Shown here piece by piece: positions 1,374 to 23,526 of a stretch of 23,526 bases of DNA. Source of the stretch: a virus. Position 1 is the stretch's first letter. Every line of letters begins with the position of its first letter. The stretch spans positions 1 through 23,526 of IMG/VR virus record IMGVR_UViG_3300032273_000007, one strand, 5' to 3'. Made by a program: the position numbers and the translations under genes. The notes under the pieces are model-generated. The model ran no database searches. It saw only the letters and a program-made list of their open reading frames with translations, and was not told where the DNA came from.

Positions 1374-2822
1374 TCAATTTGCTCCTACTGCATTCACTGC
1401 ATTCGGTGGCGGCGGGTATTTATCCGCTGGCCACTTAGTTTCCGGACCTGCATAAGCGTGAGCACGTGGGTCTCTGGTCATTTGGTAGCCAGCCCGTATA
1501 TCTGGATTAGTTGGTATGGCTGAGACCTCCCCACCAGCTGCGAAACTTGGGCCATCATATACGGGTGTAGGAGTATACCGTGCGTTAGGGCGAGCCCTCA
1601 TCGCTGGTGCTGGTGCTGGTGCTGGTGCTGGTGCTGTTACGACTGGGGTTACAACCGGCTGCGCTTCTGCTTGGTTAGCACGAAGCTGGTCGAGGCCACT
1701 AGCGATAGCAGCTGCCCCTCTAGCCATACCGGAACGTGCTGCGGGTTGCTCGATATCTACCCAACCGCCTTGAGCAAAACCCATTACCTCGCCACCTTTG
1801 TACATACCCATATCTGGTGCTACGGCCTCAGGAGGTGGTATGCCTAAAGCTTCATCGGTGACCTGTGCAGTTTGCTCACGTTCAGCAAGTTCTTGCTGCA
1901 CCTTCACGATCATCTTGTCGAAAAACTCTGTTCCTTTGCGCTTAACAACATCAGCTGGAATGACGAATTCACCATCGGATAACTTGGCATCAATAGCGTC
2001 ATCGGTCGGGCCACCCGGGCCTTCAATTTCGCCACCTTCAGCCATAAATGGAATAGCTGCGGCACCGATAGTCGCGACAGAACCCAACATATCACCACCC
2101 GCAGCATTTTTATTCGATTGGTTCGCTGCGGCAGTCTCCGCTTTAGAGCCAATTGCGCTGCCCCACGCATCTAATGCGGCGTTACCTTGCCCATACAATT
2201 CACCAGCGTCTTGCCCATACGTGGGGATAGCACTAGCGCCAGCTGCAAAGTTACTTTTCCCCTGTGTATCGAGGCCGCGACCTTGGTTTATGGTCCCTTG
2301 CTCAAGCGCCATGCCTGTCTGCTCTACACTACGGCGTGCATCGGTAGCAGCGCCAGCTTTCGCTTTCGCTTCCTCCATACGAACACCCACATCAAGGGCT
2401 TGGTTTCTTGTTTGAGAGGGATCAACACCATACGACTCTAACCGACGAAGGGCGCTTTGCCGCGCGGCTTCGGATTGTGCGGCAACTTCCGTCTGTGCGG
2501 CGGCGGCTTCGGAAGTCCGTCTTTCCGCTGTGTCAAAATTCTTAACCTTATCAAGATACTGTTCCTCAATTGGTTGGTAAAGTTCCTCGTATCGGGCTCG
2601 GTCTTCACCAGCTCGGCGCATTGAGTCCTCGGAGTAATCCAGCATTGAATCATCAATGCCAGATAGCCGGTCCCTGTTTTGCCGCCATTGTTCTTGATCG
2701 TATTTTTGGCGCTCATCGGCCATCCCATACTGCGATTCAAGCTGGGCTTTCGAGATTTCGCCAATCTCGTCAAAGCCTTTCAGCGCATCACTAGTGCCAG
2801 AAGGTGTGGATTTCTTTCCCAT
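1374..2822 (-). CDS. Internal virion/ejection protein candidate with AEGGE-type motifs (T7 gp14 position)
   Basis: The protein has 482 residues. The N-terminal half (about 20-190) is rich in Gln, Glu, Ala and Arg and probably helical or coiled coil. Around 240-262 a short Ala/Gly/Ile-rich hydrophobic stretch precedes AEGGEIEGPGGPTDDAID and LSDGEFVIPADVV (261-293), a glycine/acidic motif I know from many phage minor structural and tape-measure-like proteins. Two further GGE motifs follow (343-345 and 430-432), with an Ala-Pro run at 398-407 and a proline-rich tail. The start overlaps the upstream stop as TAATG. Its place between the gp13-like gene and a second large coiled-coil gene supports a role as an internal head or ejection protein. 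That is inference: no enzymatic domain is visible. Confidence 0.75.
   Translation of the reverse strand: MGKKSTPSGTSDALKGFDEIGEISKAQLESQYGMADERQKYDQEQWRQNRDRLSGIDDSMLDYSEDSMRRAGEDRARYEELYQPIEEQYLDKVKNFDTAERRTSEAAAAQTEVAAQSEAARQSALRRLESYGVDPSQTRNQALDVGVRMEEAKAKAGAATDARRSVEQTGMALEQGTINQGRGLDTQGKSNFAAGASAIPTYGQDAGELYGQGNAALDAWGSAIGSKAETAAANQSNKNAAGGDMLGSVATIGAAAIPFMAEGGEIEGPGGPTDDAIDAKLSDGEFVIPADVVKRKGTEFFDKMIVKVQQELAEREQTAQVTDEALGIPPPEAVAPDMGMYKGGEVMGFAQGGWVDIEQPAARSGMARGAAAIASGLDQLRANQAEAQPVVTPVVTAPAPAPAPAPAMRARPNARYTPTPVYDGPSFAAGGEVSAIPTNPDIRAGYQMTRDPRAHAYAGPETKWPADKYPPPPNAVNAVGAN
1603..1632 (-). repeat. Hexanucleotide tandem repeat encoding (Ala-Pro)n
   Basis: Five perfect copies of GCTGGT on the plus strand lie inside the 482-residue protein gene. 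Read on the minus strand they give an alternating Ala-Pro hinge near residues 398-407. Such tracts change length readily by slippage, and a six-base unit would keep the frame. Confidence 0.85.
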
Positions 2823-3259
2823 TACGCTGCCTCTTTATACAGTTTTTCCATGCGTAGCCACTTGCATTCGGCCCGATACATAGTAAATATTATCAAATCC
2901 CCATCATCAGCACCGCCTTTTATTCGGCACTGCTCGGTAAACCCAGCCTGTAAATTCATTTTCACAGCTACAGGATTGCCCGTAGACACCCTTGATGTCA
3001 CGATCTCACGACCATGTACGATGAAAGGAAAGTGGAAACATTTGAACAAAAACTCCTTAGTCAGCCAGTAGCTGCCCGGGGTCCCCGCGCTGTGCATTTC
3101 CACCATATTCTCGGACCATCCGTCATACCCAATGGCCCCAATCAAATCTTGTTTCTTTTCATCGAACTGCCCGATACAAATAAACTCTGCCGTAGGGATG
3201 TATCCTATCTGGTCGCAAAGCCAGTGCTTGATTACACCTTGGGGTTCAACGATAAGCAT
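2822..3259 (-). CDS. GNAT-fold protein resembling T7 gp13 internal virion protein
   Basis: The protein has 145 residues, close to the 138 of T7 gp13. The second half reads like the end of a GNAT acyltransferase fold: a strand with GREIVTSRV, then STGNPVAVKMNLQAGF (the N..A..l...GF pattern of the acetyl-CoA binding helix), a charged turn, and the strand DGDLIIFTMYRAEC. The usual Q/RxxGxG/A pyrophosphate-binding loop is not evident, so catalysis is doubtful. Podoviruses commonly carry such a protein next to the nozzle gene, with a structural role in the internal core or its assembly. Synteny here (nozzle, small ORF, this gene, then large internal proteins) fits well. Both neighbours are joined by one-base TAATG overlaps. 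A working acetyltransferase is the alternative. Confidence 0.7.
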   Translation of the reverse strand: MLIVEPQGVIKHWLCDQIGYIPTAEFICIGQFDEKKQDLIGAIGYDGWSENMVEMHSAGTPGSYWLTKEFLFKCFHFPFIVHGREIVTSRVSTGNPVAVKMNLQAGFTEQCRIKGGADDGDLIIFTMYRAECKWLRMEKLYKEAA

Positions 3260-5362: not shown

Positions 5363-5934
5363 TTCTGTTTCACCAATGCTTGGATAATGCCAGCTATACC
5401 CGCAGGGTTTGTGTTGCCGGTTGCGGCATCTAATTTATTTTTTTGCTCTTTGCCAAGCACCCCGAAGTACGCTCGCAATAGCACAATTAATGGACCAACA
5501 GCAGATAATAAAAACGGCCACCCGTTTACTATCGTTTTGACCATATCTGTATCCGCTGTGACAATACCATAGGCCCATAAGCTAATCGTGACGATGATAG
5601 CGAAAGCAACTACACGGAAAGACCCTAAAGCTATTTTAGGTCGTGTGGTATGAGGTGACGTAGCTTCAGTGGTCAACATCGCCCTCATGGTCTCACCACT
5701 TTGGGTTATCGTTGCCAGCTCCACATCAAATTTTTTACCCATAACTTCTGCCCTTTGCTTTGGGGGCAGTGCGCTGATAACGTCTTGAGCTTGCTGGCCT
5801 GTGGCATCAGCTGGCAGCTGCGCGTCATCTGGCAGTAAGGCGTTAATGCCAGCAAGGAGCAAGGGGCCGCCCGGGACCGCTGTACTGATGAGGTTACCAC
5901 CAACAGTCTTTACGATGTCCCAAAGCGAATTCAC
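5359..5934 (-). CDS. Holin-like membrane protein (GTA/3TM holin type)
   Basis: The protein has 191 residues. An amphipathic or hydrophobic N-terminus (about 8-35, VGGNLISTAVPGGPLLLAG) is followed by a polar, charged middle and two strong membrane segments (about 105-126, FRVVAFAIIVTISLWAYGIV; about 137-160, WPFLLSAVGPLIVLLRAYFG). This arrangement, with a polar region rich in Gln/Ala/Glu ahead of an Arg-Pro before the helices (TTRPKIALGSFR), resembles the three-helix holin family first described for gene transfer agents. It would make the lesions in the inner membrane that let the endolysin out. It overlaps the endolysin gene by 4 bases and lies directly downstream of it, which supports the lysis role. 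Confidence 0.7.
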   Translation of the reverse strand: MNSLWDIVKTVGGNLISTAVPGGPLLLAGINALLPDDAQLPADATGQQAQDVISALPPKQRAEVMGKKFDVELATITQSGETMRAMLTTEATSPHTTRPKIALGSFRVVAFAIIVTISLWAYGIVTADTDMVKTIVNGWPFLLSAVGPLIVLLRAYFGVLGKEQKNKLDAATGNTNPAGIAGIIQALVKQK

Positions 5935-6245
5935 TTTGACTTTCCCCGCGACTCGCCCCAGCTATAATGGTTGCCATCCTTGTTGCGGAAGCGTCCACCC
6001 CAAGTGCCACCCAGCTTTTCCCACTTTTCACCGATAGGGCGATGGGCTTCAGTGGTGGTCTGGTACTTGTCGTCGATGAACAGGTTAAGGTCAATCGCTA
6101 ATCTCTGGTAATGATAGCTACCATCGATATGGCCAGTCTTGGCCCATGCGTCACCGAGGCTAAACTCATAACCTTGCTTGTGCGCCCAGACCAATAGCTT
6201 TGTCAGTGCTGCCGTAAAATCCCTTTGCTTGCGGCTAAGTTTCAT
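5931..6245 (-). CDS. Endolysin, M15 family zinc peptidase (L-Ala-D-Glu or D-Ala-D-Ala peptidase type)
   Basis: The protein has 104 residues, a compact single catalytic domain. The M15 zinc signature SxHxxxxAxD is present as S43-Y-H45-Y-Q-R-L-A-I-D52, and the third ligand region appears as WEKLGGTWGGRF followed by D90-G-N-H93-Y. The first half (ALTKLLVWAHKQGYEFSLGDAWA) also follows the phage M15 endolysin pattern. Zn ligands would be H45, D52 and H93, with E or D near the C-terminus as catalytic base. It cuts the peptide cross-bridge of Gram-negative peptidoglycan. No signal peptide is present, so release depends on the holin encoded next. ATGA overlaps on both sides place it in a tight lysis cassette. 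Confidence 0.9.
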   Translation of the reverse strand: MKLSRKQRDFTAALTKLLVWAHKQGYEFSLGDAWAKTGHIDGSYHYQRLAIDLNLFIDDKYQTTTEAHRPIGEKWEKLGGTWGGRFRNKDGNHYSWGESRGKSK

Positions 6246-20249: not shown

Positions 20250-21653
20250 CTAAGTCCATGCTGCAGTAGGTGGTGGTGGTGCTACGGCGATCATAGGAGT
20301 CATCGCTCGCGCCAGCACATTCGACGCTGCTGATAGGCAGAGGTATTGCAGCCCATCTGCCAAATCGGACTCTGGGTGACCCTTATCAGGCTTCTCCGCA
20401 AGGACTCCTTTCTTATCGCGAGGATAGCGATAGTCTCTTTGTAGTGCCAAGAGTAGATCATTATTCAACCGCCTATCAATTAACAGACCACCTCCCCCAT
20501 CGATCTGCAGCCCCAAGTATCGTTCAACTGCTCTGAGCCTCGGAGTAATATCGTTGGTGGGAGCCAATATAACAGAAAACCCCAAACGCTCAACTGCCAT
20601 TTTTACAGATTCCTCACCTATCTGTGACCGCTGCCTACCAGCTGGGTCCATAGCCATGAAGAATTTCCCTCCTTGGAAGTTCTCTAACAGAAACGGACGG
20701 GCCGTGGTAGCGATAAACTTCTCGATGCCCATGTTTTCTGCCCACACCGAGCCCAACACAAGCAGCCTTCCGCGAGCATCGATTTGCCCCGCAACAAGTG
20801 CAGGGTTTCGTCCCGTATCGACCCCCAACACGATTGGCCTCCCAAAATCAGGATAGAGGCGTTCACGAATATGGAACTCGGGGTTGAACGATTTGGCGAA
20901 GACCGCTTGGCCCGATAGTGACGGGGTAATTTTATTGTGGATGTATTGTTCACACCAAGCCGGTGAGTTCGCCTCAAGGAGGTCTTCATAATACCGTGGC
21001 GGTAGGTTTTCTCTATTCTCCGCACCTTCTTCAAACGCCCCCGGCTGTACGAAATAATCAACATTGTTTGGCCTCTCCACTTCCAAAAAGTCATAGTAGT
21101 CGCTATCCTCAGAAAATGAGTTCGTTTCTCCGAACAGACCGTACCAATACTCTTTCACGTTCGCGCGTGAAGGATAGCGACCGCAGCGCGAAAAAACGGC
21201 CTGTAATATCTCTAAAGGGATTTCGCGGAACTCCGATACCCAAGCAAACGTCAGCTCGAGAGACAATAATCTTTGTTGGTTTTCCGGTGTGTCCAGAGGT
21301 AGCATTAAAACTTCGCACGATACTGGAATGCCATCAGCAGGAGTGAAAGAAACAAACAATGTCGCTTCCGAAACTTTCCACACTGAAATTGGCCGTATCC
21401 ATTCCTGCATGGTTACCAGACAAGTTGACTTCAATTGTTGTAAAGTATTCCGCACCACGACACAGCGTGACCGCCTCACCCCATCCTGACTTGGGGGAGT
21501 CTCGGATGCTCTACGCACCACTTCGATGGCACCGAGTGCAACGGACTTCCCTGACCCTACTGGACCTCGAACCAGACGAAACGGCGCGTCAGACGCGTGG
21601 AACTCCGCGAGTGTCGGAGTAGCGTTGTAAACCCGTGCGATGTCTTGAGCCAC
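20250..21653 (-). CDS. terL: Terminase large subunit (packaging ATPase-nuclease)
   Basis: The protein has 467 residues. The packaging ATPase shows Walker A as G30-P-V-G-S-G-K36-S37. Walker B is LTFAWVSE (134-141), with Ser in place of the usual first Asp. The RNase H-like nuclease follows: D279 in VLGVDTG, D336 in FMAMDPAGRQRS, and the C-terminal acidic pair in HPESDLADGLQYL (D430, D433). It powers DNA entry through the portal and cuts concatemers. A GTG start overlaps the sulfotransferase stop (TAGTG). No small terminase is identified in the window, so it probably lies upstream. A Pro/Ala tail ends the protein. Confidence 0.93.
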   Translation of the reverse strand: MAQDIARVYNATPTLAEFHASDAPFRLVRGPVGSGKSVALGAIEVVRRASETPPSQDGVRRSRCVVVRNTLQQLKSTCLVTMQEWIRPISVWKVSEATLFVSFTPADGIPVSCEVLMLPLDTPENQQRLLSLELTFAWVSEFREIPLEILQAVFSRCGRYPSRANVKEYWYGLFGETNSFSEDSDYYDFLEVERPNNVDYFVQPGAFEEGAENRENLPPRYYEDLLEANSPAWCEQYIHNKITPSLSGQAVFAKSFNPEFHIRERLYPDFGRPIVLGVDTGRNPALVAGQIDARGRLLVLGSVWAENMGIEKFIATTARPFLLENFQGGKFFMAMDPAGRQRSQIGEESVKMAVERLGFSVILAPTNDITPRLRAVERYLGLQIDGGGGLLIDRRLNNDLLLALQRDYRYPRDKKGVLAEKPDKGHPESDLADGLQYLCLSAASNVLARAMTPMIAVAPPPPTAAWT

Positions 21654-22486
21654 TATAGCTGTACTCTCAGTGGCCCACCAGCTGCTTCTTTTGGTCTCCA
21701 GAACTCAGCATCATCAAATTTATTGTATGCCTGTAACCCAATTAGTTGGTGACCATATGGGGGTAGTGGTTCGACCTTGTTGCGAATAACATGGAGCCCG
21801 GGTATCCCATGGAGGTCATCATTTTCTTGGGTGACCTGCTTAACATGATTGAAGTTGTGCTTGAACTGTTTAAGCTCCAGAAAATCATATATCCCCTGCA
21901 TGGTTTCTTGGGGTTTTTCTGCCAAGTCATTAAACTCGACAAGGTGTAGCCGGTTCCAATACCCCCGGCTGATTGCATCTTTAATTCGGTTGAACGCGAT
22001 GCCTACTGGCTGGTCGTTCCGCATCCATATATCAGATCGCCCCTCTACCGTCTGCCAGTCATAGAAATGATTTTTCTCTTGGGGGAACTGCCAGTCGTGA
22101 GCGTTCTTCCGGTACAGATTTTCAAACGACGATAGTATGTCGGTAATCTTCCGCACTGGCACGATGACCTTAGCCGGTCTACCGAGAATGACCTCAGCCA
22201 TTTCCATGTGTGCCAGCCATCCTCTCGATTTGTCGAAATAGACTGGACGGTCAACAATACTGCAATAATTATGGAGGATGGAATTTACAACCGCTGCCTT
22301 GCCTTTTTTGTTAGGTGACGCCTTGAATGCTGCCAGATTTTCCCATTGGTTGCGTATCGCTAAAATAACATCAAGAATCCCTGAGGTAGAAGTAGCATGA
22401 AACTCCGGATTTTGATTGAGGATGTTGCAAAGAAGTGTGGAGCCAGAGCGGGGAAGACCCGCAATAAAATGTATTTGTTTTGTCAT
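21653..22486 (-). CDS. PAPS-dependent sulfotransferase-like protein
   Basis: The protein has 277 residues. The 5'-phosphosulfate-binding loop is intact as G10-L-P-R-S-G-S-T-L-L, right at the N-terminus. FDKSRGW (84-90) is the strand-helix of many bacterial sulfotransferases, and VIVPVRKITDILSSF (107-121) is the 3'-phosphate-binding motif with R112 and S119/S120. The rest, including FYDWQTVEGRSDIW and VEFNDLAEKPQETMQGIYDFL (193 area), follows the family pattern. It should move sulfate from PAPS to a hydroxyl or amine on a sugar, peptide or small molecule; the acceptor cannot be read. No signal peptide is present, so it acts in the cytoplasm. TAATG upstream and TAGTG downstream lock it between a collar-like ORF and terL. 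Confidence 0.85.
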   Translation of the reverse strand: MTKQIHFIAGLPRSGSTLLCNILNQNPEFHATSTSGILDVILAIRNQWENLAAFKASPNKKGKAAVVNSILHNYCSIVDRPVYFDKSRGWLAHMEMAEVILGRPAKVIVPVRKITDILSSFENLYRKNAHDWQFPQEKNHFYDWQTVEGRSDIWMRNDQPVGIAFNRIKDAISRGYWNRLHLVEFNDLAEKPQETMQGIYDFLELKQFKHNFNHVKQVTQENDDLHGIPGLHVIRNKVEPLPPYGHQLIGLQAYNKFDDAEFWRPKEAAGGPLRVQL

Positions 22487-22770
22487 TAACGTATCCGTAG
22501 TTCGTCTAGTTCGTCGATCATGGTTGCCTGAGTACAGTATTCGCCTGTGCGGACATCAACGAAATATTCACGCTTGATATTCGCAAATGAAGATGGGTCC
22601 CGCATGGTTTCGGGATAGCGAGTTGGTAATGAAAACCTAGCGCCATCTTGCCATAACGCCCCGCCTATTCTAGCGTAGCACCGAGGCCAATCATGGCGGC
22701 TCAGCGTGCGGCCATCTGCTGGGAATAGTATAGGAGTGAGCCCTTGGTATGTAGGTGCTTCAGTGGTCAT
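22486..22770 (-). CDS. Mini tail-collar-like protein
   Basis: The protein has 94 residues. LFPADGRTLSRHDWPRCYAR and IGGALWQDGARFSLP (15-49) follow the core of the phage tail collar fold: a turn with (A/C)DGR.LSR.dyP.L, a short helix ending in IG, and the strand FxLP. Fibre proteins normally carry this domain near the end of a long shaft, as the 381-residue fibre in this window does. Here it is almost alone, followed by ~45 residues (SSFANIKREYFVDVRTGEY, then an acidic end). It may be a free cap, a chaperone or a remnant of a lost fibre. The gene overlaps the upstream one by 11 bases and the sulfotransferase by one (TAATG). Confidence 0.65.
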   Translation of the reverse strand: MTTEAPTYQGLTPILFPADGRTLSRHDWPRCYARIGGALWQDGARFSLPTRYPETMRDPSSFANIKREYFVDVRTGEYCTQATMIDELDELRIR

Positions 22771-23341
22771 ACTTTATATGGTTTGATACTGCATTATCGA
22801 TTGCCTGTTGTCCTGCTGGCTCAGCAGCAACAGCGTGCTCGTGATCAGGTAGATCATGGTTGTGAGCTACAGAGTCGTGTTCATGCTCGACCAACACAGG
22901 TGCTGGTGCTACGTGCTCGTGACTAAGGTCCTGTGCAGGGTGTTCGTGCTCAATAAGTTCCGCAGGAGCGTGTTCGTGAGCCTCATACGTGATCTTGTGG
23001 GTGTGGGGTACATGCTCGTGGTTGTGATCACTCACTTGATCCTGAAGCTGTAACATATCGGCTTGTAGCGCAAGCAGTTCATCAATATAAGGATCAGCGC
23101 TGGGGTTCAATGGCACCCGTTCATCAAGTAGGCCCATAGCAACTGCTGCCTCTCTTATGGGCTTGGTGTCAGTAGCTTCACCGACTACTACTGCTGTACC
23201 AGTGGCGAACACCAACGACCAGATCAGCGTGGCGACTTTCTTCGTAGCCACAACAATCTCGATCCATTGCTTGATTTTGTCCCACCGTGTTAGGACCACT
23301 TCCTCAGTGATTTCTTCGTCGTATTCAGTTTCATTACTCAT
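22760..23341 (-). CDS. Single-pass membrane protein with histidine-rich tail
   Basis: The protein has 193 residues from the ATG at 23341, which has GGA about 10 bases ahead; a GTG at 23365 lacks support and would overlap the upstream gene. An acidic N-terminus is followed by a basic stretch and one membrane segment (about 37-55, ATLIWSLVFATGTAVVVG). A short helical linker (IDELLALQADMLQLQDQV, about 86-103) precedes a tail with 17 His between 106 and 169, nearly all as HxH pairs (H106/108/110, 113/115, 122/124, 132/134, 141/143, 153/155, 160/162, 167/169). Positive residues before the helix place the tail in the periplasm. It is a plausible zinc-, nickel- or copper-binding segment. The function is unknown. 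Confidence 0.7.
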   Translation of the reverse strand: MSNETEYDEEITEEVVLTRWDKIKQWIEIVVATKKVATLIWSLVFATGTAVVVGEATDTKPIREAAVAMGLLDERVPLNPSADPYIDELLALQADMLQLQDQVSDHNHEHVPHTHKITYEAHEHAPAELIEHEHPAQDLSHEHVAPAPVLVEHEHDSVAHNHDLPDHEHAVAAEPAGQQAIDNAVSNHIKYDH

Positions 23342-23342
23342 A

Positions 23343-23526
23343 TCAAAATTTCCAGATCGCAGCACCGACTATGGGCCGGTGACCATTAAGTTCGTCGACA
23401 GTTGTCTTCAATGAGAATAAGACATCACCCACACGCTCAGAATCCCAGACTTTGCCGATACCTATTGCTAAGCTGTCTTCGCCATCATAGTACCCAACAG
23501 CTAGACCAACTTGGGTCTTAGTAGTC
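23343..23526 (-). CDS. C-terminus of a YadA-like outer-membrane anchor protein (N-terminus outside window)
   Basis: Sixty residues are visible, ending in IVGAAIWKF with a terminal Phe. The pattern VGLAVGYYDGEDSLAIGIGK, then VLFSLKTTVDELNG and the final strand matches the last beta-strands of the YadA-type trimeric autotransporter anchor (G.gxYxGxxalAxGxG...f.l...aaixf). An aromatic last residue is the classic recognition signal for the outer-membrane assembly machinery. A phage gene with this ending would display its missing part on the surface of the infected cell or take part in lysis. A fibre with a similar trimeric beta end is the alternative. The stop is one base before the next start. 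Confidence 0.55.
   Translation of the reverse strand, partial: TTKTQVGLAVGYYDGEDSLAIGIGKVWDSERVGDVLFSLKTTVDELNGHRPIVGAAIWKF

Follow-up and report, generated by a model that had tools for sequence, protein, structure and literature searches.

The window, the whole stretch of 23,526 nucleotides analysed here, is the entire IMG/VR record, and its edge holds the 3' end of a YadA-anchor gene on the minus strand (23343..23526; 60 codons and a stop). The reading frame (23343-23525) is open at its 5' end and encodes 60 residues with the C-terminus ...AAIWKF-stop; given that the record ends here, the gene is truncated by the contig end and the remainder had to come from relatives. In a Pfam search the fragment matches the YadA_anchor family (PF03895) with an E-value of 5.2e-6 and 26.9 bits, above the curated cut-off of 22.7, which bears out the YadA-type anchor that a sequence-only reading had claimed at this edge. 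These 60 residues recur unchanged in another contig, L002, whose DNA differs at 1 of 180 nt; a second contig, L003, is 93% identical. With L003 as the reference, dN/dS over these 60 codons is 0.07, indicating that the reading frame is coding and constrained.

The gene of an inner-membrane partner follows (22760..23341, minus strand), its ATG starting one base past the anchor-gene TGA. Next, all on the minus strand, come a 94-aa ORF (22486..22770; no Pfam match, and no PHROG match for its L003 homologue), a sulfotransferase (21653..22486; Sulfotransfer_3, PF13469, E 2.8e-15) and the terminase large subunit (20250..21653; its L003 orthologue is phrog_2 TerL, E 7e-21), a marker of the late genes. 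From anchor gene through membrane protein, short ORF, sulfotransferase and terL to portal, the order is the same in the window, L002 and L003. The earlier placement of the anchor upstream of terL, in the company of a sulfotransferase and a membrane protein, was thus correct, except that it left out the 94-aa ORF in between and did not recognise the membrane protein as a partner of the anchor. The sulfotransferase had also been tied to surface remodelling, a link that found no support: in the four further contigs that carry the pair (L009, L010, L027 and L031), neither a sulfotransferase-like ORF nor the 94-aa ORF was seen beside it, and the sulfotransferase is probably not part of the pair.

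The carriers comprise at least two phage types, given that the portal of L010 is SU10-type and that of L003 belongs to another family. Neither protein found matches in bacterial genomes, a defence-system library gave no match, and no integrase was found in the contigs of the group, which are fragments. Directly upstream of the pair or one gene off, L009 (9075-9284), L010 (5327-5548) and L031 (9290-9496) encode a conserved membrane protein of 68-73 aa with a YRVFPR motif, whose relatives in more than 100 phages, mostly Vibrio phages, are labelled hypothetical proteins. A holin identity for the two-TM ORF preceding the pair is unsupported, its relatives being annotated 'hypothetical protein'. 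Among the late genes, the window also encodes a PHROG acyl-CoA N-acyltransferase (2822-3259; phrog_4470, E 3e-29) that is kept in the L003 contig. In L002 (7600-7733), the portal reading frame terminates in ...SYTHLRAHETKANLVCRLL, which we take to be a translated sequencing-adapter artefact, and this contig end is probably non-phage.

The full-length anchor protein and its fold

The orthologues in the uncultured phage contigs L002 (1881-2411) and L003 (8372-8914) are full length, at 176-180 aa, and are built from a signal peptide (MRYLLLFLLLLPFTSEA), a Gly-X-Y stalk, a short helix with AGATAMAGL and a four-strand anchor. Their stalks match collagen (PF01391; E 1.7e-8 and 7e-11), and both PF01391 and PF03895 score above cut-off, the latter being matched in the window ORF as well. 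The L031 anchor taken alone scores under the Pfam cut-off, and the anchor protein of L027 has a non-collagen stalk. Over the whole anchor gene, dN/dS is 0.14. The window copy is truncated before the signal-peptide region, so the signal peptide is known from the full-length relatives: a crude Sec-signal rule was passed by all six full-length family members and by none of 44 other phage proteins, in line with the earlier anchor assignment. Past the signal peptide, the mature N-terminus is Gly/His-rich (DGGHH, NGGH, HKKHGHHH, EHDHPHDHD) in L009 (9567-9986), L010 (5545-6045), L027 (9594-9992) and L031 (9779-10216); judging from these residues, it is possibly a metal-binding tip. The C-terminal aromatic residue on which the sequence-only reading relied is found in the window, L002, L003 and L027, while L009, L010 and L031 continue 1-3 residues past it, such that the final residue is not aromatic in three of the six relatives.

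A profile of the six relatives' anchors, compared with the PDB, retrieved the Hia crystal structures 2gr8, 2gr7 and 3emo (E 2.5e-5 to 7e-5), the next match being LpoB at E 0.07 or worse; it also aligned with the profile built from 16 phage anchors (96% by hhalign, E 1.5e-9). An AlphaFold2 model from the six-row alignment, of modest confidence (pLDDT 64, pTM 0.42), has a helix at 5-19 and strands at 29-39, 42-55, 59-69 and 78-85. In a Foldseek search of the PDB, three Hia entries and the AtaA transmembrane domain came out on top (probability 1.00) and YadA 2lme seventh (0.97), with every E-value above 1e-3; among viral models, the top named matches were phage YadA-anchor proteins. With the modest confidence of the model, the fold is therefore anchor-like (helix and four strands) and not that of a fibre tip.

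YadA anchors in other phages

The anchor as such is not rare. The earlier view that phages seldom encode such anchors is contradicted by 96 of 50,697 phage records, which match the phiEco32 anchor, and by published yadA homologues: one in phiEco32 (PMC3728262, PMC10654107), others in Salmonella phages SP-058 and SP-076, where they lie apart from the tail genes (PMC3728262), and PF03895 in 19 N4-like genomes (PMC10654107). The layout of signal peptide, collagen and anchor is common to phiEco32 and N4-like phages, and collagen and anchor are both above cut-off also in phiEco32, SP-058 and RF1; we found no literature on a collagen stalk joined to a YadA anchor. Long phage YadA versions have extended stalks. 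Annotation usually places phage YadA proteins among tail proteins or virulence genes. The crude signal-peptide rule was nevertheless passed by 16 of 17 other phage anchor genes (also inspected by eye), the lone failure being XbC2, whose start may be mis-set, and by 22 of 25 in a second set, one failure there being 5'-open in its stretch. Given that nearly all sampled members have a signal peptide, we argue that most would be exported to the infected-cell envelope. Two cultured phages encode signal-bearing YadA-anchor proteins (L014:2769-3743 and L013:1526-2743) that are recorded as particle-associated or detected by LC-MS/MS; these may be either true virion parts or membrane carry-over.

The inner-membrane partner

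The partner in the window has 193 aa: a short, presumed cytoplasmic N-terminus, one predicted TM and an HxH-rich C-terminal part that is presumably periplasmic. It contains nine HxH motifs, a count matched by none of 2000 shuffles. The C-terminal part is likewise HxH-rich in L002 and L003 and consists of Gly-X-Y in L009, L010, L027 and L031. These last contigs were recovered with the partner as query (L009 and L010, later L027 and L031), and directly before each partner lies a small YadA-anchor gene with a signal peptide. Homologues of the partner adjoin every YadA-anchor gene of the group, in seven of seven loci (the window and its six relatives), with junctions that overlap or are one base apart; queries with either protein lead to an identical set of six contigs, each of which yielded one anchor in a profile search. 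The partner gene has a dN/dS of 0.16-0.39. Beyond the collagen repeats the partner has no recognised family, and its structure model was poor (pLDDT 52) and left unused. Because collagen forms triple helices and the HxH repeats of the trimeric T4 fibre tip bind metal, it is reasonable by analogy to read the partner as a trimeric rod. Beside the other sampled phage anchors, no such partner was observed, so it is not a general requirement, and it is the partnered, very short form of the YadA anchor that appears to be new.

Proposed function and comparison with known systems

The reading that we favour, and consider fairly probable, is that the pair consists of a minimal type Vc autotransporter, trimeric and made by the phage for display on the surface of the infected Gram-negative cell, and a helper akin to SadB or TpgA. 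At the level of sequence, this is suggested by the signal peptide, the short stalk (collagen-type or other), the pore helix and four-strand anchor, the tightly coupled one-TM gene and the constraint on both genes. From what is known of the family we infer an outer-membrane location and a trimeric state: the anchor chain would be exported by Sec, would trimerise and would be inserted into the outer membrane by the host BAM machinery, leaving a thread of collagen, tipped with His-rich sequence, exposed on the cell exterior. The inner-membrane partner, as a periplasmic trimeric rod, could then aid export or steady the anchor, by analogy with SadB-SadA and TpgA-AtaA. The earlier suggestion that the infected-cell surface is remodelled is thus a reasonable one, and the architecture makes such remodelling by these phages probable. 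Superinfection exclusion is a plausible role: the likeliest benefit, and the least certain part of the proposal, would be that, once its surface is altered, the infected cell or its debris no longer adsorbs other phages or the progeny of the resident phage; a benefit from infected cells aggregating or attaching would rank second. The short stalk leaves little room for a binding head, which counts against the proposal. Our boldest version, which we consider unlikely, is that the collagen-stalked mini-autotransporter and an inner-membrane collagen/HxH (metal-bound) rod are the products of a two-gene module shared by more than one uncultured lineage and together make a trimeric device that spans the envelope and closes the infected cell to later phages; if true, these phages would have a type Vc system dedicated to exclusion. 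The conserved partner gene in any case provides a small, testable two-protein system for phage rebuilding of the host surface.

Alternatively, rather than excluding phages, the protein might act as an adhesin on the cell surface, so that infected cells stick to one another or to particles and progeny meet new hosts more often. Bacterial type Vc proteins are mostly adhesins, and the extended stalks of the long phage versions would fit such a role, but here the passenger has fewer than 100 residues and no recognised head domain, and we regard this possibility as unlikely. Still less probable is a virion component, a short fibre or tip in which the YadA fold serves as a receptor-binding trimer. 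YadA domains do occur in a tail fibre (PMC3909814) and in the virion of cyanophage S-SZBM1, which includes a YadA-domain protein (PMC9146016), and some signal-bearing phage YadA-anchor proteins are detected by LC-MS/MS or annotated as particle-associated; carried-along membrane fragments could account for such detection, however, and what the protein resembles is the membrane anchor and not the head domains. The fibre-tip reading was dropped because all full-length members begin with a Sec-type signal peptide and a TM-protein gene is coupled to theirs. Least probable of all is a spanin-like lysis pair, in which an outer-membrane collagen protein and an inner-membrane rod would link the two membranes and break the outer one when the cell lyses. 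In its favour, the pair has one partner in each membrane, both likely trimeric rods; in L010 it is surrounded by genes for several small membrane proteins, close to a DUF5675 gene; and no lipoprotein o-spanin candidate was found in the surroundings of the lysis genes in the window, L003 and L010. Against it, the anchor protein is not a lipoprotein, type Vc stalks are normally exported and not periplasmic, and in the window about 16 kb separate the pair from the lysis-type genes (M15 peptidase, 5931-6245). Two pair-carrying contigs also have Rz/Rz1 elsewhere: L009 encodes Rz (phrog_739, E 9e-17) and, overlapping it, a lipoprotein ORF of the Rz1 type, with a DUF5675 gene adjoining, and in L027 Rz-like and Rz1-like ORFs come after an amidase-like one, all distant from the pair. 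The pair is thus probably not a spanin.

Among phage proteins, phi32_119 of phiEco32 (Kuravirus; 'agglutinating adhesin') and its homologues in Salmonella SP-058 and Erwinia RF1 resemble the window group in signal peptide, collagen repeats, C-terminal YadA anchor and anchor fold. There are also differences: (i), in the phiEco32 type a coiled coil separates collagen from anchor; (ii), its annotated neighbours include no such inner-membrane partner; (iii), the anchors are distant (38.8% over 49 residues, E 0.3). The Eib adhesins of E. coli P-Eib prophages are also phage-borne YadA-type proteins, but they are annotated as immunoglobulin-binding and reside on prophages, whereas no integrase was found in the window group. 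Like the phage protein, the type Vc anchors of Hia and YadA, its best PDB matches, consist of a pore helix and four strands; the phage protein differs in being phage-encoded, with a much shorter passenger, no head and collagen in place of the coiled coil. As for the helper, the phage partner is in neither the SadB nor the TpgA family. From the periplasmic side, TpgA binds to the anchor of AtaA (PMC13082670), while no peptidoglycan-binding domain is reported in the phage partner. SadB enhances surface display of SadA (PMC3953254); it is a lipoprotein, unlike the phage partner, which is a TM protein encoded downstream of the anchor gene. As in the phage pair, however, the SadBA operon joins a type Vc gene to that of an inner-membrane, periplasmic trimeric helper (PMC3953254).
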